A stretch of DNA of 35,105 nt from Paludibacteraceae bacterium (GTDB taxonomy: Bacteria > Bacteroidota > Bacteroidia > Bacteroidales > Paludibacteraceae): the NCBI GenBank assembly GCA_017448345.1, contig JAFSLP010000015.1:1-35105 (forward strand). Reading direction: 5' to 3'. How positions within the stretch are numbered: the first letter of the stretch is position 1; the number at the start of each line of letters is the position of its first letter. A program made the position numbers and the translations under genes. This document shows positions 7,013 to 32,000 of this stretch, one piece after another. The notes under the pieces are model-generated. The model was not told the origin of the DNA and did no database searches. It saw nothing but the letters and a program-made list of their open reading frames with translations.

Positions 7013-7717
7013 ATGAACCTGAAACGTCTTATTCCGGACACTATCACGTGCTGCAATCTGCTCTGCGGCAGTATAGCCGTTTTCCTTGCTACGCAAGGCG
7101 CTTTCATTGCAGCTTTCTGCTTTATCTTGGGCGGCGCTTTCTTCGATTTCTTCGACGGAATGAGTGCGCGCCTGCTCAAAGCGCCCAGTCCGATAGGCAT
7201 ACAGCTGGACTCTCTGGCGGATGATATCACCTTCGGTCTGGCTCCGGCGATGATGCTTTTCTGCTATCTGCGTCCTATCCTCGGATGGTGGGCGTTACTG
7301 GCGTTGCTCATGGCGGCGTTCTCTGCCATACGCCTTGCCAAATTCAACGTGGACGAACGGCAGCATGACTCGTTCATCGGGCTCGCCACACCGGCTAACG
7401 CCATCTTCTGGGGAGGCATATGCTGCATGCCCTATGCAATGCTTGCGTACGACTGGATGGCATGGGTCCTCATCGGCTTGGCTATGGTCAGCTGCTGGCT
7501 GCTGAATGCGGAGATACCGTTCTTCAGTTTCAAAGCCTTCGGCAGGGAGAAAGTGGTCATCATCGGCTTCTTGGCGGGATGCGTGGTGCTCCTCGGCTTC
7601 TGTATCGCCAAAGCCGTGACTACCGGACATGTCTGTTTCGCTCTCTTCAGCGGTACTGCCTGTGTCCTCTGGTATGTGGCGCTGAATCTGCTCTTGGCTT
7701 GCATGCCTAAGAAATGA
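7013..7717 (+). CDS. pssA: CDP-diacylglycerol-serine O-phosphatidyltransferase (phosphatidylserine synthase)
   Basis: The 234-residue integral membrane enzyme joins CDP-diacylglycerol and serine to form phosphatidylserine, the precursor of phosphatidylethanolamine. The CDP-alcohol phosphotransferase signature DG-x2-AR-x8-G-x3-D-x3-D is complete at residues about 47-70: DGMSAR, eight residues to G, then IQLDSLAD. It begins with MNLKRLIPDTITCCNLLCG, the usual opening of this family. About six to eight hydrophobic helices follow. It is 49 bases after the permease and closes the run that begins at 2640. A psd (decarboxylase) partner is not in the window. Confidence 0.95.
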   Translation: MNLKRLIPDTITCCNLLCGSIAVFLATQGAFIAAFCFILGGAFFDFFDGMSARLLKAPSPIGIQLDSLADDITFGLAPAMMLFCYLRPILGWWALLALLMAAFSAIRLAKFNVDERQHDSFIGLATPANAIFWGGICCMPYAMLAYDWMAWVLIGLAMVSCWLLNAEIPFFSFKAFGREKVVIIGFLAGCVVLLGFCIAKAVTTGHVCFALFSGTACVLWYVALNLLLACMPKK

Positions 7718-7789: not shown

Positions 7790-8071
7790 GAATACCCTTG
7801 CGCTACCCGGAGCGTCCTCCCGATGAAACGGGAGGAGCGGCCTCCGCCTAGAAGGGCTACCCTTGCGCTACCTTTGCGCTACCTTTGCGCTACCCCGGAG
7901 CGTTCTCCCGGTGAAGCGGGAGAAGCGGTCTCCGCCTGAGAGGGCAATGAATCGTATACCCTTGCTATACCCTTGCTATACCCCGGAGCGTTCTCCCGGT
8001 GAAGCGGGAGAAGCGGCATCCGCCTAAGAGGGCAATGAATCGTATACCCTTGCTATACCCTTGCTATACCC
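7790..8071. repeat. 88-bp composite tandem repeat (3 copies) with covarying hairpins and 11-bp subrepeats
   Basis: Three hairpin modules of 39 nt lie at 7808-7846, 7896-7934 and 7984-8022, exactly 88 bases apart. Each has an outer stem CGGAG/CTCCG and an inner 7-bp stem. The inner stem is TCCTCCC/GGGAGGA in copy 1 and TTCTCCC/GGGAGAA in copies 2 and 3, so pairing is preserved by a double change. Copy 3 has one outer mismatch (ATCCG). The 49-base spacers contain 11-bp subunits: TACCTTTGCGC-type in the first, ATACCCTTGCT-type in the second and third. 88 equals 8 x 11. A partial spacer (ATACCCTTGCGC) precedes copy 1. The array fills most of the 405-base gap between pssA and the nuclease gene. 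The function is unknown; a transcription end, a structured RNA or a protein-binding array are all possible. Confidence 0.92.
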
Positions 8072-8122
8072 TTAGGCACCCTTTGAATAAAAGAAATACA
8101 AACAAATTAGCACCATACAGCC

Positions 8123-9934
8123 ATGAAACGTCATCTTCTCCTTTGTACATTGTTTTTTGTCCCTTTGTACATGCTTGCCGGGACCTATACCATTGTCTTC
8201 AACAGCGGCAATGCCGACTCCAGTTCGCAGACATCGGACCTCAACAGCATCGTCTTCTCTGCTACGGCTAACTGCGCGGACCGCGTGATAACCGCCAATA
8301 AGATCTACCGTGCCAAAGAGGGCTTCGGCATCAAAGGCGGCACGGCTTCCGCCAAGGGGGAACTGACAATAGGGCTGGATGACACCTACCGGATTACTTC
8401 GATGACCGTCTTTGCCGCCAGTTTCGCCACGGACTCCGCCAAGTCCGCCGGTATCGATGTATGCGGAACGCACATAGACTGGGAGACAGGTCATAAAACA
8501 CTCATCCGTCCCTACACGATAACCCTCAACGGGAACCTGAACAGTATCTCTATCCAAGCTACGAACGCCAAAAACAACCGCTGGTACGTGCAGAAGATCG
8601 AGTTCGAGGCGGAAGACCCGCATCCCGCACAGGCGGCGATAGAGATGCAGTACGCCAAGATGGACTTCGGTGCCGTGCGCTGGGAGAGTGAGGAGGAGCC
8701 GCTCGAAGATGTGCTCAACCTTGACATCACCGGCAGAAACGTGGTGGGAGACATCCGTCTCTCGCTGCAGTCAGGCAAGACATTCACGCTCACAGAGACA
8801 TCCCTCCCTGCCGCAGGCGGAGAAGTGGGTATCTACTACAGCGTCACCTATAAGGAGGTAACCAAAGCCTTCCCCATCGAAGACGTGCTGATAGCCAAAG
8901 CCAAAGGCTCGGATAATATCGAGCGCACGCGCGAACTGCCTGTCGTGCTGACCGTGGTGCCGCCGGGGGCGGGCGCAAGCACCTTCGATTTGGACACCAC
9001 AAGGATGGCAATCGGAGCCATGCCCGGCAGGTATTACCAATATGCACAATGCACTGCCGACTCCACACTCAAGAACCACCTCGGCTATATCATCTGCACC
9101 GGCAGACGCTACCGATACGGCAGCGGCACAAGAAAGACATGGGATGCGTTCTTCCACACCGACCGGGACACACTGACCAACCGCGTGCTGGATATGTATT
9201 CCGACAACATACGCTATTTTGACCCCGGGAAACCCACTGCCAGCGTACCGGAATTCGATATCGAACACATGCTGCCCAAGAGCTGGTGGGGCGGCAATGT
9301 CAACCCTGCCTATTGCGATCTCTTCCATCTCGTGCCGGCGGATTATTCCGCCAACCGCAGTAAGTCCAACCATGCACCGGGCATCCCTGCCGACAGCACC
9401 TTCAATAACGGTTCCTTCGTCACTGGAAGCGGAGAAGCCTACGGACTGACACGCGTCTTCTGTCCGGCGGATGAATACAAAGGAGACTTCGCACGCGCCT
9501 ATTTCTATATTGCTGCATGTTATGGCGACAGCCTCACATGGCTCACTACAGGAGAACCCGGTATTGCCATGACCAACGACGGATGGCAGGAGTTCCGCCC
9601 GTGGCTCCGCGACATCCTCCTGCAATGGCACCGCATGGACCCCGTGAGCGAGAAAGAGAAGAAAAGAGCCATCGAGGTCAACAGGATACAGGGCAACCGC
9701 AATCCCTTCATCGACTACCCCGATCTGGTGGAATATATCTGGGGCGACAAACAGGGGCAACCGGTCGATTTCTATGCCCTGCCGCAGACCTTCGGAGACG
9801 ACTATGACGAGCATCAGGCGCTTTTCGCGCCCGATGATGACTCGCCCGCTGCACAGAAGACTTTTCGCAACGGAATGATTGTCATCCTACGGAATGCGTC
9901 AATTTATACCACATTGGGGCAACGTCTGTACTAA
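8123..9934 (+). CDS. Secreted endonuclease I family nuclease with N-terminal beta-sandwich domains
   Basis: The 603-residue protein has a signal peptide (about 1-20, MKRHLLLCTLFFVPLYMLAG). A beta-sandwich domain spans about 21-175 and an Ig-like region about 180-285. The endonuclease I domain spans about 295-550, with the metal/catalytic motif DIEHMLPKSWW near 377-387, then DLFHLVPADYSANRSKSNHA and the closing NRNPFIDYPDLVEYIW. Endonuclease I enzymes cut DNA non-specifically outside the cytoplasm, which suggests nutrient acquisition or biofilm DNA cleavage. The last 20 residues (GMIVILRNASIYTTLGQRLY) resemble the tail of the protein at 15041 and may be a short secretion or anchoring signal. 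It has its own long upstream gap and is followed by a weak hairpin at 9933-9956. Confidence 0.92.
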   Translation: MKRHLLLCTLFFVPLYMLAGTYTIVFNSGNADSSSQTSDLNSIVFSATANCADRVITANKIYRAKEGFGIKGGTASAKGELTIGLDDTYRITSMTVFAASFATDSAKSAGIDVCGTHIDWETGHKTLIRPYTITLNGNLNSISIQATNAKNNRWYVQKIEFEAEDPHPAQAAIEMQYAKMDFGAVRWESEEEPLEDVLNLDITGRNVVGDIRLSLQSGKTFTLTETSLPAAGGEVGIYYSVTYKEVTKAFPIEDVLIAKAKGSDNIERTRELPVVLTVVPPGAGASTFDLDTTRMAIGAMPGRYYQYAQCTADSTLKNHLGYIICTGRRYRYGSGTRKTWDAFFHTDRDTLTNRVLDMYSDNIRYFDPGKPTASVPEFDIEHMLPKSWWGGNVNPAYCDLFHLVPADYSANRSKSNHAPGIPADSTFNNGSFVTGSGEAYGLTRVFCPADEYKGDFARAYFYIAACYGDSLTWLTTGEPGIAMTNDGWQEFRPWLRDILLQWHRMDPVSEKEKKRAIEVNRIQGNRNPFIDYPDLVEYIWGDKQGQPVDFYALPQTFGDDYDEHQALFAPDDDSPAAQKTFRNGMIVILRNASIYTTLGQRLY

Positions 9935-12687: not shown

Positions 12688-14907
12688 ATGACAAACATCT
12701 TTCATAACATACTGATCGCAAGTGTTGTTCTTAGTCTGACTTGCACCCCTGTACTCGTTTCCGCTATGCCGGAACCCGCTCCTGCTGCGCAAACCGACAA
12801 ACAGAAAGCCGCTGCCGCCAAGGCGAAAGAGGCGGAGAAGAAGAAGAAAGAAGCAGAGAAAGCCAAAGCCGCTAAGGAGAAAGAAAAAGCCAAAGCCGCT
12901 GCCGCCAAAGAGAAAGAGAAGGCGAAAGCCGCCAAGGAGAAAGAGAAAGCCGCTGCTGCCAAGGCGAAAGAGAACGAGAAGAAAAAAGCGGAGGCTGCCA
13001 AAGCCAACGAGAAAGCACAGGCGCAGCGCGAGAAAGAAGCTGCCGAACGCGCCAAGATAGCCGCTGAACGCGAAGAAGCCAAAGCCAAGAAAGAGGCGGA
13101 AGCGCAGGCGAAAGAAGAGAAAGCCATCCGCGACTACGAGAAATATCAGGAGAGTCTGGAGAACCCCAAGACCGAAGTCATCTCGTATGTCAACCTCGGC
13201 GCACGACTGGGCTATGCTGCCATGATGGACAGATTCGGCAGCAACACCTATCTCGGAGCCGGTACGCTCAACCGGTCCAACGCACTACAGCAACTCAAAG
13301 GAGGAGCAGGCGTGGGTATTGACGCTACCTATGGGCTGGAGTACGGACATTTCCGCTTTGAGACAGGTCTGGACTTCCGCTTCCTTAACTCCGCTTCCGC
13401 CTACGGATTCAATGCAACGCGTACGGATGTAAACTATCCGGGCACCAAATATCTCTATCTCTTTGACAACCTGAATGAGACGCGCAACATGTTCGAGATA
13501 GGCGTGCCGGTGATGTTCGGTGCGCAGTTTGACCGTTATTATTTCCTCTTGGGTGCCAAGATTCACTACGGCATCCCGTTGGGTTACAGCCAGAAAGGCA
13601 AATATGACATCGTCGTCAACGACCCCTCGCTGCTGGAGCCTTACGGCATGGGTATCCATGACATCAACGGACAGACCAATGCCAAGATTCAGTTCGCGCA
13701 ACCGGATGTCAGTCTGGCGGCGGAAGTAGGTGTGGATCTGGATGAGTGGCTGCAACAGTCTCCGGACCCCAAGAAGAAAAAACAACAGACCAAACCCGGA
13801 CAACGGCTGCCCTTCGGACGCGAGCATATCCACTACCGCGCTGCACTCTTTGCCGAATACGGCGTGCTGAACACCAATAGCACACCGGCTGCCCTGCCTG
13901 TCGGGTTTGCAGCCGACGCAGTGGAGGTGCAGCACACCAACACGCTGCTTGCTTGGGGCGGAGACACTAAACTCAACAACCTCTTTGTGGGTGCCAAGTT
14001 CATCGTCCAGTTCGAGATTCCGGGTAAGAAAGAGCGCCCTGTGCCGCCGCCTCCTGCATATGCTATGTACAGCATCGTCGATGCGGAGACCAACCAGCCC
14101 CTGCCGCTGGCTTTCGTAGAGACGCATAACGCAGAGACGGGCAAAGTCACCCTCCGCGAGAAACAGATTACGCCGAAAGGGTTCCGCCAGAAATGTGCAC
14201 TGGGTTCCTTCGTTGCCGAAGCCAGAGCGGAAGGGTATTACAACACCTCCTTCCCCTTTGAGATTGAGGAAGTGGGCACCACGGAATATGTCACCATCGC
14301 GCTCCGCCATCGTCCTGTCCTGCGCGTGCGCGTGACTAATAAGGAGACCGGACTCGTCGTTCCGGCTTCCGTGCAGGTCCGCAAACGCAACACCACAGAG
14401 ACAGCTTACACGCTGGCTACCGACTCCGTCAACGGAGCTGCAAGCATGATGCTGGAGGAAGGACCGCAATACACTATCCATATCGCACAGATAGGATATG
14501 ACACACTGGATATGGAGATTGCCAACATCGGTGACTCTATGAACATCCAGCTCTCGCCGGTGAAGAAAGGCGAAGTCTTTGTGGTGCGCAACCTCTTCTT
14601 CGCTACCAACAAGACACGTATCCTTCCTACTTCGGAGGAAGCGCTGAATGACCTCTATATGTATCTGGCGCGTAACCCGCAGGTACGTATCAAGATTATC
14701 GGTCATACGGATAATGTCGGCAAGGATGCTGCCAACCAGAAACTGTCCGAAGGACGTGCCGAAGCCGTGATGAAAGACCTCATCGAGCGCGGCTTGACTG
14801 CCGACCGCCTCCAAGCCGAAGGTCGCGGTGAGACACAGCCCATCGACACCAACGAAACACCGGAAGGCCGCCAGAATAACCGCCGTGTAGAGATTGAAAT
14901 CCTGTAA
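12688..14907 (+). CDS. OmpA-family outer membrane protein with long K/E/A helix
   Basis: The 739-residue protein is exported (signal about 1-28). Residues about 32-155 are almost entirely Lys, Glu and Ala with KEKAK- and AAKAKE-like units and should form a long charged helix or coiled coil. A beta-barrel-like region follows (about 160-460, with many aromatic strand ends), then two carboxypeptidase-regulatory-like beta domains (about 465-625; AYAMYSIVDAETNQPLPLAF, LRVRVTNKETGLVVPASVQV), then the OmpA peptidoglycan-binding domain (about 630-739), with NLFFATNKTRILPTSEEAL, IIGHTDNVG and the NNRRVEIEI end. It probably spans the outer membrane and grips peptidoglycan. AGGAG lies 11 bases before the ATG. 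It is framed by two IgGFc-like genes, suggesting a joint surface assembly. Confidence 0.9.
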   Translation: MTNIFHNILIASVVLSLTCTPVLVSAMPEPAPAAQTDKQKAAAAKAKEAEKKKKEAEKAKAAKEKEKAKAAAAKEKEKAKAAKEKEKAAAAKAKENEKKKAEAAKANEKAQAQREKEAAERAKIAAEREEAKAKKEAEAQAKEEKAIRDYEKYQESLENPKTEVISYVNLGARLGYAAMMDRFGSNTYLGAGTLNRSNALQQLKGGAGVGIDATYGLEYGHFRFETGLDFRFLNSASAYGFNATRTDVNYPGTKYLYLFDNLNETRNMFEIGVPVMFGAQFDRYYFLLGAKIHYGIPLGYSQKGKYDIVVNDPSLLEPYGMGIHDINGQTNAKIQFAQPDVSLAAEVGVDLDEWLQQSPDPKKKKQQTKPGQRLPFGREHIHYRAALFAEYGVLNTNSTPAALPVGFAADAVEVQHTNTLLAWGGDTKLNNLFVGAKFIVQFEIPGKKERPVPPPPAYAMYSIVDAETNQPLPLAFVETHNAETGKVTLREKQITPKGFRQKCALGSFVAEARAEGYYNTSFPFEIEEVGTTEYVTIALRHRPVLRVRVTNKETGLVVPASVQVRKRNTTETAYTLATDSVNGAASMMLEEGPQYTIHIAQIGYDTLDMEIANIGDSMNIQLSPVKKGEVFVVRNLFFATNKTRILPTSEEALNDLYMYLARNPQVRIKIIGHTDNVGKDAANQKLSEGRAEAVMKDLIERGLTADRLQAEGRGETQPIDTNETPEGRQNNRRVEIEIL

Positions 14908-20004: not shown

Positions 20005-23000
20005 TCAGATGTTGATTACTTTATGCGAGGTGTCGTTTACTTTGACCACATAACCGGAGATGACAGGCAGCGGCATGGTGAACTCCGAGCCGGAAGCCGT
20101 CACCGTCCGGACGAGTTTGCCGGAAGAGGTATAGACGGTTATCTTGTCGCCGGAGACGAGTCCTCTGACATACAGCGTGCGGTCGGTGGCAAAGACGACA
20201 TACTGCCTCTTGCCGTCTGCGCCGGTCTTGGGGAAGCCGCCGATGCGCACCGCGAAACGCGTGTTGTTCGTGCCGGGCTCTATGGACGCCGTGTAGTCCT
20301 CCTCCATGAGGTTGGTATAGCGGCGCAGCGCATAGTCGATGAGCCATACATAGCGGTATCCTTCAAAGGCTTCTTTCTCCGGCAGCGAGAAAGTGAAGTC
20401 ATTTACCATTTGGTCATTTGCCATTTTGTCATTTATTTGGTCATTTTGCGGGACATAGACTCCGAGAGGTATATCCACTTCAGTCGGTGCTGCACCAAGG
20501 AGCGAGATACGCGAGAGGCGTTTGCTGTCCAGCAGATACATCTGCGGCGAGAGCATGTTCGCCTGCCATTTCATACCGTCGCGTCCGTAGCTGTATTGCA
20601 CATTCTTGCCGGCTGCCGAGTCAGGCATGGCGGTGAGGATGTCGCTCTGGCGGCGGGAAGACATCATGCGTACCAACGGACGCGCCTCCCGTTTGTTGCG
20701 ACCAAAGTACGGCAGATGGAATATCACTTCCTCACGCCCCTTGCGGGTAGCGGTCTGGGTGAAGAAGGCGTTGCCCATGGAGAGCGTAGCGCCTTTGTCC
20801 CACGAGCGGGAGGTGTATATCTGGTCGCCGTCGGTCATATAATTACCGGCTCCGTCCATCTGGTAGAACACGTGCGGGATATACATCTGGCGCAGATAAT
20901 TCCCCTCCAAGAGAATGGTATCCGTCCTGTAGTCCGACACGAGCCACGGCAGACCCTTCATGTTCCATCCCATATCTTCCTGACGGGTGAAATCAAGTGT
21001 TGTTCCGTTGCCTGCTATGCGGTGGTCATACTGGGTGAGATAAATCGTCTTGTCCGGTTCGTCTTCCGACTCGGTATAGACATAGTTGGTCTGCGTGGCG
21101 AACGCCGTGAACCGCAGCGTGGTGTCCTGCTTGGTGCCGAAATCCATCAGGTACCCTTCTGTCGCCGTTCTGTTGAGCGTGTCAACAGGCAGCCATAGGG
21201 ATGAGTTCTCCGTCTGGAAGACATAGTCCTTCGCCGAACGCGCGGCACCTGAGTATTGATAGGAACGGAAGTCAACGGGCCGGAGCGTCTGCGCAAGCGA
21301 GTCGTTGGAGGACGTGTAGGTGGTGGCGATGACATTTGCCACGGAGTAGTCGTATGGCAGGGCGGTCATGGAGTAACGCTGATTGACAAACTTCTTCTCC
21401 ACCGCCACATAGTTCATCCGCACGTTATGCCCGTTGCCGAAGAACGATGCGCCGGACTTAAGGAGCATATAACCCGGACGGAAATACATGTCGGCATCTA
21501 TCTGCTCGAAGTCCTCATCTTGGTATTGCATCGTCATGGCAGAGCTGTCCATGAGATATACCACGGAGCCCGGATGCGGGTAGGCGTTACCGCCATAGTG
21601 GTCGAGATAAGCTCTGCGTCTCGTTTCCTCGGTAGCCTGCTCCAGTTCGGACTGGGTATGGAGCGGATTGGTGACAGCCGTTATCTGCACATCCGTACCC
21701 GGCTCGACCCGCCATGCCTCAAGGGCACCGAGATCGACGTTTCCGCCGATGCGGCGCGGATTGCCGAGGATATCACGGTCGTGCCCGAAATGGACGGTAC
21801 TGTCCGCCGTATAGGGGTCGAAGAGTGCAGGCAGCGACTCACGTCCGCTGTTCACCGCCTTGCTATGCTCATGGAGCTGGTATGCCAAAGCAGGCATATT
21901 CGTCAGATAAGCAGGCAGGGTGTATGCGTTCGCGGATGTGAGATAGGGCGCAAAGCAATGCAGGCGGCTGATATGCCCCTCTATGTTATTCACCACGGCT
22001 CCGGTCTGTGCTTCGGTACTGTCTATGGCGGTATCGGTCAGACGGGACGCTATGACGGTGTTGTTGAGCGCCAAGCCGTGCGCACCTATCCGCACTACCG
22101 TCTGTGCCGTGTCGGCATAGAAGAGGGAGTTATAGAGCAGACCGCGCTGTATATCCGCCAGAGGCGCACTGCCGGAGACGATATTACCGGTAAAGAGACA
22201 GTTACGCACCGCCGTGAGGCTGTCCGCCAGCACAAGCGGCGAGGTGGTGAAGACACTATCGGGATTGGTGAACACGAATCCATCCAAGAGGAATCCTGTC
22301 TTGTAGGGAGCAGCCGCCTCGGTGAGCAGGGTGTTGATACGCGAAGGCTCGGCACCCGGCGCGATCACACCCGGCGTGATAGAGCGGATATAGTTCACAT
22401 ACCGCTGACATTCGTCGTTGGTGAAACGGGGTTGGTCGGAGCTCCGGTCCACAAATGCCGTATCGTTGCAACTCATCGGAATACCACCATAGACATACAC
22501 GCCATCCCGTGCGATGATGTCGTTGCGCTCGTGCGAGTCGCCGGAGGTCTTGACAAAGACGTATGCCTTGCGCGACTCGCGGTCGTCTGCGGACTTATTG
22601 AGATAGGTATATACCGCCGCTACATCGACAGCGTCTTGGAGTTGCCCTTGTCCGAAGGGCGTAGCCCATGAGGAACCGTCTCCTGCGCTATAGGCAGGCA
22701 GCGTAGGCTGGACGTACAACACGCGCTGGAGGACTGCCTGACACTCATATGCGCCACGCTCCATGCCCAAGCCCAGCAGACGGGGTTTGGATGCCAGGTC
22801 GCTGTCATTGCGCAGAGTGGTGATACCTGTAGACTTGAAGCCGTTGGACCTGCGCCAGTATTTGCCATGCGTAGCCTCGCTGGTGTCGGGGTGCATACGG
22901 AAGAAGACACGATTGCGATAGAGCGTCGTATCCGCCATATTCATGGTGCGGATACCGGGGTTAAGCCGGAAATTACGTGCGCGCCGTTCTTCCGGTGTAG

Positions 23001-26000
23001 AGGCATCCACGTCCGGCTCAACGAATCTCGGACCCTCAAACACATTGCCGTTGTCCGTCACAAGCGGTTCGTTGCGGTAGGTGTCATCGCCAGCGAGGAA
23101 GCACGACCAGAAGGCATTGTTGGTCACACGGTCGGCAAGACCCTGTTTGTCCGTATGCTTGTTCCATTTATGCTCAATATATTCGGGGTCCTGACCATCG
23201 GCATGCTCACGCAACTCCAGCTGCGTCAGGGTATCGGAAGCCAAGTCGTCCAGCCAGATGAGGGAGTTATGCACCTCGCTATGGTCGGACAAGAGGGTGA
23301 CATGTCCGTCGTTGAGGGCAAAGGTGGAGTTGACCACAATGACATCGTTCGGCTCGGTAGGCAAGTTGTTCTCTCCCACCACTTCGTCGTAGTGTTTCGC
23401 GTATAGCGGTGCTCCGGCATTGGAGTGGAAGAGGCTGTTGACGATGAGGCTGGAGCCTCCGCCATGGTCTATACGTACGGCGGGCGAACGCTCGCTCTTG
23501 TCTGCTGTGCGTGCGCCGTTTTCCATAAATACGCAGTTAGAGATAGTCAGTTTGGGCAGTTTGACTTTTTCGCCGTCCAGCATCGTGGAGTCCGCATGGA
23601 GGACATTGTTGAAATCCGGCGTGAAGACACCGCTGCTATTCTTATCCTCATACTGGCGTTGCCAGCGGTAATAAATGGCAGCCCCACCCTTCATGCTCAT
23701 CAGACCGCCCAAGTCCGTACTCTCCGCATTGGCATCGCGTGTGGAATAGGGGTTGATGAAGGTGATACCGTCGAAGGTGACAGGAATCACCACCGTATCG
23801 CGCGAGGTGACCTCGCCCATATAGTTGGCTTGGGTCCTCTCACGGGTCATATCTTCGATGACGAAAAGCTGGTTGCGCTGCGAACTGTTGCCCACATTGG
23901 GCATCTCTATGACGGTAGGATGCGCAAAGGGGTCACGTTTCTCGTCTTTGACATTATAGTTGTATCCGCCGAGGAAAGTCAGGCTCTTGACGCCATAGTC
24001 ATAGTCCGTCATGGCACTGTCGGGCAGGAGTGGCGCGAGCGTATTGGAGGTGACGACAAACGCACGGCGGTTGTCAATCACATTGGTGGGCGTGAAGGCG
24101 GCGCCTTCGTCGTCATCATCGCGGAGAAGACATACATATTTGTCGTGGTTGTTATGCGAGGACATGAGCAAGTCTATCGCCTCCTGCAGGTCGGTGGTAG
24201 GTGTCTCGAAAGTGAGCCCATCGTGACGGATAGGGTCTTTGGTCTTCGTGGCTACCCACACCGTATCCACCTCGTTGCCTTTGATGTCGAGCTGCACATA
24301 CTGGTACTCGTATATACCCATGTCGATATAGACATCCTCCACTTTCATCCTCGGGCTGGAGGATATACGGAGCATGTTGCCAACCGTAGAAGTATCGCTT
24401 ACGCTGCGGGTATATGCCATGTAATAGTCATTGCCCAGCGGCAGAGGCGGGTTGGATTGCGAGAGGAACGTACCATACTGTTTGGCGAGGTAGTTATACA
24501 TCGCGGGCGGGTTAGGCTGGCTATTATTAAATGTTGCCGTAGGCATGCCTTGACGCGGGAAGACATCCTCTTCCGTCGCCTCCGGATTCTCTTCTTTCGC
24601 AGCTGCCAGTGCCTCCTCTGCAGTAGCGAATTGTGTAGCCCCTGTATATTTGGTGGTAAAGTAGTTCTGTCGGGAGACGGACTGCTTGAGGTGTCCCCAG
24701 CCTTGGTCGGTGGTGAGGGTGATACGCGTCTGCAGCCAGTCGGCATTCTGCATATAGCCGTCCAGACCGGCTACGAAGGTAGGTTGCCGGAAGTTAGGAC
24801 CATCCACCGCCGTGTTGCTCCTGTTGATGAGCACATTATTATTACCATGTACGTAGGAGAAGAGCGAATCATACAGCTGGGCCGGACGAACGGGCGTACT
24901 ACGGCTGTCCTTGTAGGCTTTCAGCTCATCCCTCGTCATGAGATAGCCCTCCGCGTTCGGCTTCATGGAAGAAGGTCCGTAGTCCTTGCGATAGGAGCAG
25001 AAATAGAGTCCTTCTATCGAGTCGCCCAATGCACGGAGTTGGGCAAGTTTGGACGTGACTTCGGTATTGAAGGTATCGCCTTTAGCGAAATGATAATTAT
25101 AGAGACCGTCGTACTCTTGGAAGAGCTGCTCGTATCTTTCCCATTTCGAATGATCATAGTGGAAGACACCGGAACGGGAACCTTTGTATTTGAGTTTGAA
25201 TGCGTTTTCCGTAGAGTCAGCCGGCGCCTCTCTATGCTGCAAATCCGCCAGTTTTTCCACCTCGAACACTTCGTTGCCCCAGAAGATGGTATTGAAAGCG
25301 AACTGCATCGAGTCGGAGGTGGAATAGCGGTTATTGGCAAGCATGTTATAGATAGAGGGGTATGCCACGGCTTTGTTCCGCATAAAATGGCAGTTGACCA
25401 CGCGCATCTGCGCCTTCGGTCCGATAGAGAGCACACCGCCAAAGCCCTGACGCGCATCGGCATCGGGGATATTCTCTTTCGACGTGGCAGTCAGGGGATA
25501 GAGTCCGCGTTTCGCCTCATTATTGTCAAAGAGGGTATTGGCAATGTCGCAGGTGGCATTGGCGGCAATACATCCGCCGGCAGACCAGAGGATATTCTGC
25601 TGGTCGAGCTCGGTGACAGGCCCCTGCGAATAGTTCTGGGTGAAATGGCTGCCGAACATATAGATACCTCCGTTGGAGAAGAGGGCACCTCCGTTCGCCG
25701 CCATATTGTTGTTAAACGAGCAGTTCTCTACGATAATCGGGATGTTATATTTCGCCGGATAGGTCATATTCAGCGGTTCGGCGCCTACCTCATTCACTGA
25801 TTCTGTCCAGTTGCCATCGACTAAGATACCACCGCCGCAGAAGTAGGTCTTCTGAGTATAGGGGTGCCTTGCCGCATCCGCCAAATCAAATTGGTTGGCA
25901 TATCCGCCGGTGAACTGGATACCGTCAAAATCGGTGGTACGGGCTAAGACGGAGAGCTCATTCTCCAGATGGAAAGATGCCGTGTCGGTAGGAGCAATAG

Positions 26001-29000
26001 TGTCGCTGAAGACGTACATACCTTGTGTGTCAAGAGTAGCCTTCTTATATTTAATCGGCTGCGGACCAATATAGGCAGTGTCGGCATGCATAGTGACCAC
26101 ATGATAAACATGGGTGAAGTCCTCGCCGGAGACGGCATCTCCCGACAGGATGGTCTGGCGGTCCAGCTCCCATGGCTCAATGACGGAGTTGAGGTTATAG
26201 TCACGCATGGGGCGGTGGCGGTCATCACGCAGACGGATAGAGTCAAGCAGCGCAAAGTTAATCGTATATTCCGATTCCGTACCGGGGATGGTAACATCCT
26301 CTCTATGGTTGGTGATGATACTATCGCGTGTGAATTTATCAAGGAATCCCTCTTGTCCGTACTTATGGTCCGCCTGTTTGGAGTCGATACCGCCAATGAT
26401 ATAGATAGCTTCGGGGACAAGGAAGGTGTTATTCCGCACCTCGTCCTGCTCGCCATAGGCATTGCGGTAGGGGTAATAGGTACCCTTCTCGATATAGACC
26501 TCAAAGACGGTGTTGCGGTATTTGGCAGGATTCATTTTCCGAGCCGCAATGATATACTCGAAAGCGTCTCCCAGACGGTGGAAGGGGTTATAGATACAGG
26601 AGCCCATCTGGCGATACATATGGGCTATATCACTATTATCGGTATTATCCTGCAAGTCACGTGCCGCCTTGGAGTCCAGCAAATCGGTATGCATCACAAA
26701 GAGCCGCTTCATCACATATTTCTCATCCACCTTGATTTCGAAGGTCTTGTTCAGCGCACGGGCGCCTATCTCGATGAAGTCGTTTCTCTTGACCACAAAG
26801 GTGTCGGTACCCCATTTGTATCCGCGTTCGATGTTCGGTACGGTCCAAGACAGGCGGTTGATACCGGCTATGTCCACTGTCTCAAGGGTCGGGTATTTGC
26901 GGCAGGCTTTTTCCCATTCGCTATAGGTCATGCCGGCACGCGAGAGCGTGGAGGACATCTCTATCGGGTAATAGAGGATGGCATTGAAGGGGTCCAGTCT
27001 ATCCCAGCGCACACCTTCGGTCTCGCTTGGGGAGAGCAGCACATTACCCTGCCCCTCCAGACGACGTGACTCCACGGCGCAGAAGAGGAAAGGATAGTCG
27101 GTCTCGGCACTCGTACGGGTGAAACTACCGGCTACGTTGGCAAAGTCATTGGCGGTGTTATGCCATATGGCGGTGGAGTTGACGCGGGCATAGGTATTCT
27201 CGAACCACAAGCCGCCGGCGGTTGTCTGCGCGCTGTTTTCGCATATCGTCGTCGAATAGATATGGGCGATGGAGTCGTTCGCTGTATTGGTTGCCGGTTC
27301 GATATAGATACCTCCGCCCTTGTCTGCCGTATTTTTCTTGATAATCGTACCGCTGACCAGTGCTTTAGGCAAGAGGTAGAGCCCGCCGCCATTACCGCTG
27401 GCTTCATTGTTCTGGATGACGCAGTTGCGTATATGCGCATAGGCAGGCACTATGGCACCCGCGCCTATCTTGTCCTCTTCGTCCGAGGAATTGGCAAGCC
27501 CGTCCTCGATAAACAGACCGTCCACCACCGCCCGGTCTTTCTCGTCGGTCAGGACTGCCAGTTGGTTGCGTATGACTTGACCCTTATTGTTTTTGAGCCA
27601 TTTCTCGTCATCGACATTGAAGAGGTCATCGGTAAAGGTCACTACGTGGTAGCAGTTACCTTCGGCACCCGTGGTGGAAGTGATTTTGCCTGAGAGCACG
27701 GTCCGGTAGGTCAGCGGGTCGCGCTCATCGACTATTTTTCCACCCTCCTCGTGGTAGAAGGTGCTGGTATAACCGCCCTTCACCTGCACGCCGTGCGGGA
27801 TGATGAAGGAGTAGTCCAGCGTATTATCGTGATAGGTTTCTATACTATGCTTGGTGGAGCGGGTAGGCGTGTACCAGTCGCCATAGACGCTGCTGGTGGT
27901 GGCATTGGTATCGTCGCCTTCCAAACGGACCTCAACCGTCCAGTGTTTGTTGGGCTTGTCTGCAATAAACGTCTTCGGAATCATCTTGCCCTCTACCATT
28001 ACCGAGTCGCCTTTGTCGTAAGTGCCATCCGTCATCAGGGCGTGTTTGTACCGTCCTGCGGCATCGAGCACTTTCTGCAGTTTCTGCTTGCAGGCTGCGT
28101 TCTTGGGCGAGTCGGCGGAAGCGTCACCGCCCGGAGAATCGAACATCACATAATAGATTGCCTTGCCCGGATGGGTGGTCGTATCGGGTTTGATGTTCTT
28201 GGCTCCGTCATACTCGTACGCACCCATATCAATCTGGCAGTCCTGCACACGGTTAGCGAACACCACATCGTTAGAAGGAAGTTCGACTCCTTCAACAGCC
28301 TTGAAATAATCAGTAGCTCTTATTGTAGAATCATTGACTGTTTTTTTATTTACAGTCAAATAATTGCCAACGGCAGTATAAAGAGTTCCTTCAAAATCAT
28401 CTGTTCCAGCATTTACGCAACCAGAATTCTCCCTTAATGAAAAATCATTACTGTTTTTCGCTCCTCCTGTATAAATCCCGTTGTCAACATCTGCGACAAA
28501 AGGAGTTGTTGTTTCATTGGGATCCTCTCCGTTCAAGAACACGTTTCCTATTCCATAATACGTTTTTCCAGCTTTATAATTGTTAATCGCATTTAGAAAT
28601 TCTGATTTTGTAATAGCTTTCTTTGATTGAATATAGCAGTTTACAAACGGAGCTGAATTTACAGAACCTCCAGCGGTTGCATCAACAGCGAGACCACTAT
28701 TCCCATATATAATACAGTTAGCCATAAAAAGCTCCATATTTGCCCCTTTGGCTATACGGATACCTCCAACACCGGATTCATCACCTCCATACATACCTCT
28801 ATTGTATGCAACTGTATTATTATAGAACTTACCGACACACAAACCGACATTACCATAACCACGGGCAAAGTTATTGGCTATAAGGGAGTTAAAACACGTT
28901 CCCTCATAGATAAACATACCTCCTGCAAATAACTGAGATTCTGTCATCTGAGTGCCGCGAGTGGTTGTATTATTAAGAATAAAACACCCTTCAATGGTAG

Positions 29001-32000
29001 AAGTCGAACCATCACAGAACACTCCTCCTCCTTTTACCTTATTCGCACCATAGAAATTATCCGTAATGATACAGTTCTGCAAATGAGAACCTTCGTACAT
29101 ACTCACACCGGCACCACCTCCATGAGGTGTTGCTTGGTCATAAACGAAACCATGACGAATAGTGAATCCATCCCAATATATCTCATTATATCGTTTATAA
29201 TTAGGATCAGGAATCCACAAGACACTGCCACTTCTGGACCGACGTGTGAGATTATCTATACTATCAATACGTTCGCAGTGCGCAATACTATCAGAGGAAC
29301 CTCCTGATATAGGATTCCCAAAGCTACTGAAATATACAGGATTCGTAACATCAGGCATCTGCAACACCCTTTTGCGGAGTGTCGTTCGTGTTTTCGTAAT
29401 TGTATAGTTTTGTTTTGTCGTCCTATAATTGGTTCGCGGTTCGACGACTATAGTATCTACGATAACGCTGTCTTTTCCCGTCAGCACATATGAGGGCACC
29501 TCATCTATATTCTGTAATTGTAGATTTGCAATAAAAAATTCACGGCGGTTAGGATTCAAAGAACCATAATGATTCCCCTTATTGCAGGTTCCGCCATCCC
29601 ACTCGTATTTACATGGTATAGTGTCCGGGTCACCTCCTCCTTCTCTACCATATGTAGCATCTTTATCCAATGTATTTCGGGTTCCGTCTCTCACCTCTAC
29701 CAAGATAATCACATTACCGTCATTACTTGTAGTAAATTCTATCGTTTTTCGGTAAGCACTACCTCGAACATTATCTTTATTAGTGTCTGTCAATGTATTT
29801 CCTCTGCATTTCAACTCTATAGGATCTACCAAATCAACTGAATCATTATCCAATATATGGAAAAATATATTGGAATGAGTATAAATATCAAAAGGATAAG
29901 AAGATTTTGTATTATCACGATAACCACCCATCATATCCAAAGTAAAGCTATACTTTCCTGCAGGAATATTTTTGAACTTCTGCCAATATCGAAGTCCCGT
30001 AAGAGAACCGTTTCCTATACGCCTCGTAGTATTCTCTCTTGTTTCAATATATTCATTTGTTTCATAGTCATATATTTTCATTGGTTTGCTACCTGTATTA
30101 CTTTGATTTTCCAAGGCAACAAAGTAATGTCCGCTATCCGGTGATAGTTGTGTATTTGGATATGCTAAATGCCAACAATCTAAAGTAGCAGTAGCTTTTC
30201 CGTATGTAAGATACTGATATCCATTGGACGAAATATTCGATGTAGGTGTTGTGTTATATGTAGTAGTAGGGGAAAATATATAAGTATCTGTTATGTCTGT
30301 TACGGTTTTGTCTGTATAAGTATAAGTATCAATATATGTTTTTTTCTTATACTCAAAAATAACTGTATCAGACGTCTCGATAAGAGAATAATCATTATCC
30401 GAAAAGAAGCGTGCAGCTGGATTAATAGTAATACTATCTTGATATGGATTAATATCCGAGATCTGAAGAATTGTCTCATAGTCACGCGAGCGAACATTTA
30501 CGTTTTCTACTGCCTTTGGCACTGTTACTGTTGATGAGTCGGCGAGAAGTGCTTTACGTTCTCCAAGACCTGGAGAAGAGAAAATTCCTGTTGGGAACCC
30601 ACCTAATACAGTTACGCTATCGCGCATGATAAAGCCCTTGTAATCAGTATATTTGCCAGCTCCCACCCATACTTGTACAAGAGTATCAAAACTCTCTTCC
30701 GGGAGTCTTGTTGCAACATGATTCCGTCGAGCTGCTTCTTCTACCGCCCATTGCAAACCGCTTACGTATTTCTCCCGACGTTCATTTGTAACAGTAACTA
30801 TACCATCTCTAATCCAAGACGCCTCTGTATCATCAACTCCGACTGAAGTATCCTTTACTCCATCATCTGAATAAGGAGTTGTGTTTCCCTCAGCTCGCCA
30901 GAAAGAGCGTGATGCGCCGGAAATCTCACCATAAGGATAGTTACTATTTAGCATGCTTTGTGGTGTCCAACCAGTTGGAGTAGAACCTGAATTCGTAATA
31001 TTTGTAGAAGTATAGTTGATATATTCATTAAGGTGTGTTGTATCTCTTCCTGCTTCAGGTCCTCCGTCATGTACCTCAATATTTGTAACCCATGCATCAG
31101 TTGACGTGGTTGTACTGATCCCGTCTTTTTTATAAGACGTTATCCAACTCTTTGCAAATCCGCCTTGATAGCGGTCATCTGTTGTGAGGACCGGCTCTTT
31201 CGTAGATTTATTGACTAGACGGGCATTGTTCTGGGTATCAATCGAGTCGCCTGCCGCCAAACCCGGGCCGGTTATATTGTTCAGCACGTACACCGTATTT
31301 CCGGCAATGGCATTGCCCCACGAAGAGCCGTCGCGTTTGCCGGCGCCATCGGGGGTGACATAGAGGACGGTGCCTGCCTCGGGGAGGTTGGTGTTCTCGA
31401 TGGCACCTATATCGGGTGCACCGCCCCGGTTACGGAGGATGTTGTCCGTACGGTCGTATTTGAAATTGTCGTAAGCCGGCACGAAGGCGGCATTGACGCA
31501 GGGGTTGGTGTTCAGCGGGGCATACGACACCGTGCCGCCGTACAGCGGCTTGTCGCCCGTGATAGACACACCCACGTTTCGCGAGGGGTTGACGAAACCC
31601 GGATAGTTGGTATCCGTGCTGTTCGTTCGGGTGAAGATGGCTTTGTTGTTCTTCTCATCCGGCAGCGTGGCATCCAGCGAGGCACCGAAAGTGGTCTCTC
31701 TGCTCTCTATGCCTTCATCCTCGCCCGGCACAAACTCCTGCGGGACAGTCTTGCGGAAGCCGTACGTGAAGAAACCCTTCGGCTGATCCGTACTGATATT
31801 CTGCAACCGAAGGTCTTTGTCGAACATGTTGTATTCGCCGAAGACGTAGTCCTGTCCGTCCGGGAAGACGGACATCACCTGCCCCACACTTCCTAACTCA
31901 CCCCGGTTATCCAGAGGGCGGTCGCCGTTACAGAAGATGATGGAGTTATTCACGCGGATGAAACCGTGCAGCACATGCCCGGAGTGTGCCGGGTTGGTGC

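Follow-up and report, generated by a model that had tools for sequence, protein, structure and literature searches.

A dispersed palindromic repeat with the sequence anatomy of an intrastrand DNA triplex in Paludibacteraceae

A stretch of 35,105 nucleotides from a Paludibacteraceae bacterium (assembly GCA_017448345.1, contig JAFSLP010000015.1, positions 1 to 35,105; hereafter, the window) carries three hairpins at a regular distance between two genes. What these hairpins are, and whether their folded form matters, is the question raised by this locus. The array (7790-8073) lies downstream of a pssA-like CDP-alcohol phosphatidyltransferase gene (7013..7717, + strand; Pfam PF01066, E 7.6e-18) and upstream of a gene with an Endonuclease I domain (8123..9934, + strand; Pfam PF04231, E 8.3e-40). 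Tandem Repeats Finder reports a period of 88 at 7792-8071 (3.2 copies, score 370), and the hairpins are in register at 7806, 7894 and 7982, with spacings of 88 and 88, as the first-pass annotation had described. Other repetitive parts of the window are a perfect 25-bp tandem repeat of 2.1 copies at 85-136 and, at 12841-13073, tandem repeats with periods of 21-60 within a coding frame where AAG and GCC codons abound. The minus strand has an open reading frame of 4911 codons at 20005-34740.

Each hairpin belongs to an element of 50 nt on the + strand, here named H, which was scored with a covariance model (R1) built from 22 H copies. Copy 1, also read directly from the sequence, spans 7807..7856 (80.3 bits), with arms TCCTCCC (7815-7821) and GGGAGGA (7830-7836) and a tail AGAAGGG (7850-7856). 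Copy 2 spans 7895..7944 (72.7 bits), with arms TTCTCCC (7903-7909) and GGGAGAA (7918-7924) and a tail GAGAGGG (7938-7944). Copy 3 spans 7983..8032 (76.7 bits), with the same arms at 7991-7997 and 8006-8012 and a tail AAGAGGG (8026-8032). Read as a mirror image of the 3' arm, the tail matches at 6/7, 6/7 and 7/7 positions, respectively. Copy 1 is of a different arm type than copies 2 and 3: the inner stem changes at both partners, and the loop changes in a paired manner, from G-ATGAAA-C to G-GTGAAG-C. Both changes had been noted beforehand and are seen in the sequence itself. In copies 1 and 2, the outer stem CGGAG/CTCCG is whole; copy 3 (GCGGCATCCGCC) is without the innermost pair. Folded as RNA, the array reaches z = -2.2, equalled or bettered by 1/100 shuffles. 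The fold at this single locus is only modestly above chance, and the non-randomness comes from recurrence.

The DNA around the H copies is an 11-bp tandem repeat, T, with unit TACCCTTGCGC or TATACCCTTGC, so that the array unit consists of the 50-nt H and a T spacer. On the + strand, T is found left of copy 1 (7790..7806, unit TACCCTTGCGC, with TACC at its end), between copies 1 and 2 (7857..7894, GCGC type), between copies 2 and 3 (7945..7982, TATA type, left boundary AATCG) and right of copy 3 (8033..8073); the sub-arrays of period 11 detected by Tandem Repeats Finder lie at 7856-7895, 7955-7983 and 8043-8073. The CRISPR interpretation had already been dismissed, and rightly: a CRISPR has unique spacers of similar length, and the spacers here are T repeats. 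The spacer between copies 2 and 3 recurs right of copy 3, which suggests that these two copies arose when H and its spacer were duplicated in tandem. All ten copies of H located in T in this genome follow TACC or TACCC (10/10). Three T units also occur in frame in a putative NAD-dependent DNA ligase gene (L019:1501-1538).

The spacing of 88 is also present at a second locus of the same genome (contig 26), where H likewise lies within an 11-bp repeat, and among the loci compared, it was found only in this genome. In other species, tandem H pairs are spaced by 40, 72, 78 and 107 with other spacers, and tandem arrays of H and spacer exist in several species. No H was present at the 29 other pssA loci examined, one of which (L456) was out of register. 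The first-pass annotation had reasoned that a structural role would be unlikely if the array were unique to one strain and not phased, or if the arms were decayed in relatives. Among the pssA loci examined, only the one in this genome has the array; the element, on the other hand, is spread over the genus with its arms paired.

H is a dispersed repeat of ~50 nt. In the genome itself, parts of the array are matched at 30 places with E values up to 1, some of these being the 11-bp repeat alone. The search by covariance model that had been proposed for the hairpin retrieved at least 577 matches in 112/178 genomes of the genus, a lower bound, as at most 33 candidates were scored per genome. With stricter filters, H was absent from 197 other Bacteroidales genomes, two further genera of the family among them, and in an order-wide spread of genomes, the sole carrier was the genome of the window itself. 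Among the matches listed, the named carriers are mostly Paludibacteraceae or Bacteroidales bacteria from ruminant or horse gut, next to one Candidatus Colicola equi and one Candidatus Alistipes equi. In the genomes searched, H is restricted to one genus. Three contigs of a viral collection (L195, L196, L197) also contain H, and hence, phages or integrated elements of the genus may carry it. The literature searched yielded no paper combining Paludibacteraceae with the term repetitive extragenic palindromic.

The pairing of the arms is well kept in this larger set. Only 10/1336 arm pairs deviate from Watson-Crick pairing in 167 copies, a figure that is partly built in, since copies were chosen with at least 6/8 arm pairs formed (one place is counted twice, as L043 and L169). 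This bears out the earlier observation that pairing is preserved through compensatory change. An unexpected feature of the same 167 copies, 106 of them distinct, is that the heptamer forming the 3' tail, placed after a linker, resembles the 3' purine arm read in mirror image. The linker, GCGGNNTCCGCCT, is 13 nt long, follows the pattern CGG-NNT-CCG and could form a small hairpin of its own. A variant of H at three loci (L015, L050, L120) has the linker AAGACCGTGTCCGCTCCGCC, with which the outer stem pairs perfectly over 7 bp and a three-way junction may form.

Scored as triads of tail and arm pair, 680/742 positions in the 106 distinct copies are canonical (G.GC, A.AT or T.AT). Permuted tails reached a mean of 593.7 (sd 7.2) and a maximum of 620 in 10,000 permutations, a comparison that overstates independence, because H copies are related and the loop is associated with the arm. 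Mirror identity is 0.90, versus 0.24-0.54 in direct or shifted registers. At tail position 2, A stands opposite A in 49/50 copies and G opposite G in 109/117; at position 5, G is opposite G in 119/128, and A or T is opposite A in 39/39. In purine-motif triplexes, T opposite an A-T pair is an allowed triad. T at tail position 5 occurs in 18/39 of the A-T copies and in 0/128 of the G-C copies. Where the arms themselves are mismatched (n = 8; four T-G and four G-A), the tail base equals that of the 3' purine arm in 8/8, as a reverse-Hoogsteen contact predicts. Weaker triads are also present: A at tail position 3 is opposite G-C in 63/150 copies.

Two arm types beyond the first set largely follow the mirror rule as well, as far as their tails could be read. 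The arm GGGAAGA, absent from the model, was found in 14 copies, with the tail AGAAGGG in eight and AGAAAGG in five; the 14th is overlapped by the next copy, and A is opposite A in 13/14. The subfamily H4 (arm GGGGAAA), first met at a tRNA gene, was searched with a pattern that excluded the tail and occurs 42 times in 31/178 genomes. In the 21 H4 copies that were read through, the tail is GAAGGGG in 20/21 and GAAAGGG in 1/21; its position 1 places G opposite A-T in 21/21. With H4 included, 717/791 triads are canonical, versus a permutation maximum of 630. A later sample of 60 regions, in which the GGGAAGA type was found, gave 20 new copies, next to 36 already in the first set, and taken alone, it did not exceed permutations (10 distinct copies, 59/70 triads, mean 53.4, maximum 61). 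At two places (L043, L090), the H4 tail is found on another arm, which looks like recombination between subfamilies.

Could this covariation be a founder effect of a few subfamilies instead of structure? The copies are related, the main arm types number only four apart from H4, and the loop, too, is associated with the arm (Cramér's V 0.59 and 0.72). The tail, however, is more tightly bound to the arm (V 0.91 and 0.93) than to the loop (0.61 and 0.54) or the mini-loop (0.17 and 0.16). Each of the commonest loops, ACGGAA, TTGAAG and ATGAAA, is combined with at least three arm types, and it is the arm that the tail follows; when tails were shuffled only within copies sharing the same loop, the maximum was 652 in 5,000 permutations, which does not reach the observed 680. 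The exact mirror register is not what founder effects predict, T at tail position 5 is confined to A-T copies, and this explanation is considered unlikely. At the level of sequence, arms and 3' purine tail covary in the manner of a hairpin joined by a third strand in mirror image, and H is built like a class II intrastrand DNA triplex, in its order of motifs and in a tail antiparallel to the purine arm.

That the folded form matters is supported by these data; whether it acts as RNA or as extruded DNA had been left open. Mismatches in the arms of the + strand are six G.T, four G.A and no A.C, which favors the + strand as the one that folds. The G.T bias, together with the location of H next to tRNA genes and gene ends, would also suit an RNA element that acts in processing, stability or termination and conserves its pairing as RNA. 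Copies inside genes are nevertheless read in both orientations, 23/24 copies at tRNA edges are antisense to the tRNA, and in the window, no Rfam family except a tRNA reached its threshold, so that a known RNA family was rejected. An RNA role is, hence, quite improbable, and the orientation of the in-gene and tRNA-edge copies makes DNA the more likely acting form.

The tRNA edge is a recurrent location. H abuts a tRNA gene in 24/167 copies, covering nine kinds of tRNA; 23 are at the 5' end and one, at a tRNA-His, is at the 3' end. The chance of such an abutment was estimated at 1.7e-4 per copy, a figure inflated by the way in which loci were chosen, and the resulting p-value is not literal, as orthologous sites are not independent. 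For the subfamily H4, the 5' edge is the main habit: 19/28 are at a tRNA gene, all 19 at its 5' end. At tRNA-Arg(tct), 50 loci were compared (30 as the best matches and a further 20 chosen manually, in part for a known H): seven have an intact H, three a remnant or altered H (one in the genome of the window), six another element with the same start (three of them full H4) and 34 none. Loops and arm types at this position differ between species, suggesting repeated insertion or replacement. In the genome of the window, H adjoins tRNA-Arg(tct) on contig 103 (L388, ~1477-1553), and an extra stretch in its hairpin loop resembles the T repeat boundary (TAATCGTACC). At L374, L383 and L401, in species without H, another, longer repeat-like sequence starts at the same 5' edge.

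Some copies of H are also located in frame inside protein genes. Of 146 copies, 58 are within open frames that reach 120 codons or more, many of them by chance, since the region is GC-rich. A stricter test, with at least 40 codons on either side and at least 200 in total, was passed by 15/31 copies with G at column 43 versus 4/109 with T (two copies skipped, four with A or C; Fisher 1.3e-8); this value is too good, because the 15 copies come from about nine independent sites and some frames look spurious. The change from T to G at column 43 removes an in-frame stop on either strand. In putative engB, named from its translation, H is present at 3/30 loci of the genus and at two named engB loci, one of which matches one of the three; in other species, the same loop contains other repeats or nothing. 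Across L240-L269, the putative EngB loop holds, in frame, short repeat families that differ between species, a repeat insertion hot spot within a conserved gene. No clean empty site was found in the engB loci examined, the loop being too variable and occupied by other repeat families.

The insertion sites were compared at 112 flank-distinct positions. The two positions before CGGAG are C in 80% and 88% of sites, and the base ahead of them is most often A (44%). H usually follows CC, often ACC, with no general target duplication: shuffling gives matches of 3-5 nt just as often, and direct repeats of 14-17 nt are found at 3/112 sites, in repetitive surroundings. No general preference for the flanks or 3' feet of hairpins as targets was seen, and no transposition event was seen directly in the genomes compared. 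As for a gene accompanying H, the commonest neighbor is a putative HU-like small family (11 elements), which is not transposase-like; the other clusters of neighbors are largely orthologous loci.

Taken together, it is considered probable, though by no means secured, that the array is a mobile palindromic repeat in an 11-bp minisatellite and that selection keeps its triplex fold. H would be a short non-autonomous mobile repeat that landed in T and was then duplicated in tandem together with it, giving the three copies now present. When single-stranded, the + strand of H would fold as a class II intrastrand purine-motif triplex: the pyrimidine arm, the purine arm and then a reverse-Hoogsteen tail, turned back by the CGG-NNT-CCG linker. 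The simplest cause of selection would be that the enzyme moving or copying H through a single-stranded intermediate recognizes this fold. More tentatively, and with less than even chances, the mobility of H itself may depend on the single-stranded DNA triplex, with an enzyme recognizing both the hairpin and the third strand and inserting H at 5' edges of tRNA genes and in frame in flexible loops of essential proteins.

The most serious competitor, possible if somewhat unlikely, is that H is an ordinary REP moved by a RAYT (Y1 tyrosine) transposase, its tail being a recognition or cleavage tail. RAYT-like genes are indeed common, being found in 128 and 121 of 178 genomes with two queries. The genome of the window has two of them (E 1.4e-8 and 5.8e-4 with NCBIfam REP_Tyr_transpos, neither reaching the cut-off of that model), which are diverged and lie on the minus strand of contig 29 (L053, 801-1949 and 4029-5249). 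The lack of general target duplication and the GGAG before the hairpin would fit, and so would two locations of H: at L079, within another frame, ~0.5 kb separate it from a RAYT1-like gene, and at L296 it is close to one, in the latter case, however, within a putative neighboring gene. Against this, H was matched in only 0/42 and 1/20 of the RAYT loci sampled, which cover part of the RAYT clades. The flanks of 29 loci (9/42 and 20/20) mostly display other hairpin repeats, and none of the loci examined has a RAYT gene with H on either side of it. RAYT1 and RAYT2 of the genome itself were rejected as mobilisers within this sample, the flanks examined showing other repeats. Across genomes, H and RAYT genes co-occur weakly (Fisher p = 0.015), and 24/112 genomes with H have no RAYT2-type match, though many of these are incomplete. 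Moreover, a cleavage tail does not predict mirror covariation base by base. Both RAYT-like families of L053 are multicopy in the genus, and several copies are flanked by tandem hairpin repeats of their own (GTATCCGCC..GGCGGATC and CCCGAATnnnATTCGGGGCTAATGGACAAAG). A T repeat (L049:1501-1531) lies ~0.2 kb from a RAYT1-like gene (1756-2802).

The array could also be a helically phased protein-binding or architectural site, as the first-pass annotation had supposed from 88 = 8 x 11 and the 11-bp sub-repeats. This reading is not supported and is very improbable: the array is absent from this locus in the relatives examined, and the different spacings of tandem H pairs elsewhere indicate that the multiple of 11 comes from the T unit and not from helical phase.

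If H is a mobile repeat with a triplex fold, how does it relate to known elements? The closest in anatomy is the E. coli motif BoxC/PIT/TM-ECO, also found in other bacteria, with the consensus CCCTCNCCC-N3-6-GGGNGAGGG-N3-GGGNGAGGG (Holder 2015, PMC4666352). As described there, it shares with H the pyrimidine arm, purine arm and reverse-Hoogsteen tail on one strand, a GC-rich composition and a dispersal over the genome in both orientations. H differs in its 7-nt arms and in having several arm types with a covarying tail. Its 13-nt linker exceeds the published loops of 1-6 nt, which are a limit of the ITxF search and not a structural rule (PMC4666352), and TM-ECO is reported there as always intergenic, whereas H has copies in genes and at tRNA edges. 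The main text of PMC4666352 does not mention Bacteroid-, tRNA, covar- or compensat-. For the E. coli motif, triplexes were stable in vitro, while in vivo footprinting did not support their stable formation (PMC4666352).

Other families resemble H in part. Rickettsia palindromic elements (RPE), compared by description, are palindromic and lie in frame inside unrelated protein genes, as H appears to do in the putative engB loop and in other long frames of genes named from translations; they are ~150 bp instead of ~50 bp, belong to a different taxon and, in the descriptions considered, have no tRNA-edge habit. The CGTC-tagged REP superfamily, reported in Bacteroidetes among others, has, like H, stems of 8-9 bp, short loops, intragenic copies and no associated transposase (PMC3733652). 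According to that description, its CGTC tag is unpaired and terminal, its 3' end is mostly CCA and clustered copies are head-to-head; in H, CGTC is in the stem and not conserved (CGTT or GGTG in some subfamilies), the 3' end is a long purine tail and clustered copies are in tandem. GTAG REPs and BIMEs are also short hairpins, with clustered copies that include flanking DNA, a tetranucleotide ahead of the hairpin and RAYT genes in the genome. Their GTAG is terminal and outside the hairpin, while the GGAG of H is inside the possible outer stem and is, in the published accounts considered, absent from the variants described. MITEs can be set apart as well: the ends of H are only CCC/GGG, and no general target duplication was seen at the 112 sites. 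By this comparison, H would be an intrastrand-triplex palindromic repeat of a variant not described before.

The importance of intrastrand DNA triplexes in living bacteria is the issue to which H may speak, as a natural test: its tail varies with the arm at four positions, its arms come in four main types and in that of H4, and copies with mismatches already exist. It is, at the same time, a short element located repeatedly and exactly at the 5' ends of tRNA genes, at sites that are occupied in some related species and empty in others, and it supplies in-frame copies in genes such as putative engB. To our knowledge, there is no earlier case in which comparative genomics alone showed a selected intrastrand DNA triplex. 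If the proposed reading is true, three-strand compensatory change in this genus would show, by comparative genomics alone, an intrastrand DNA triplex under selection.
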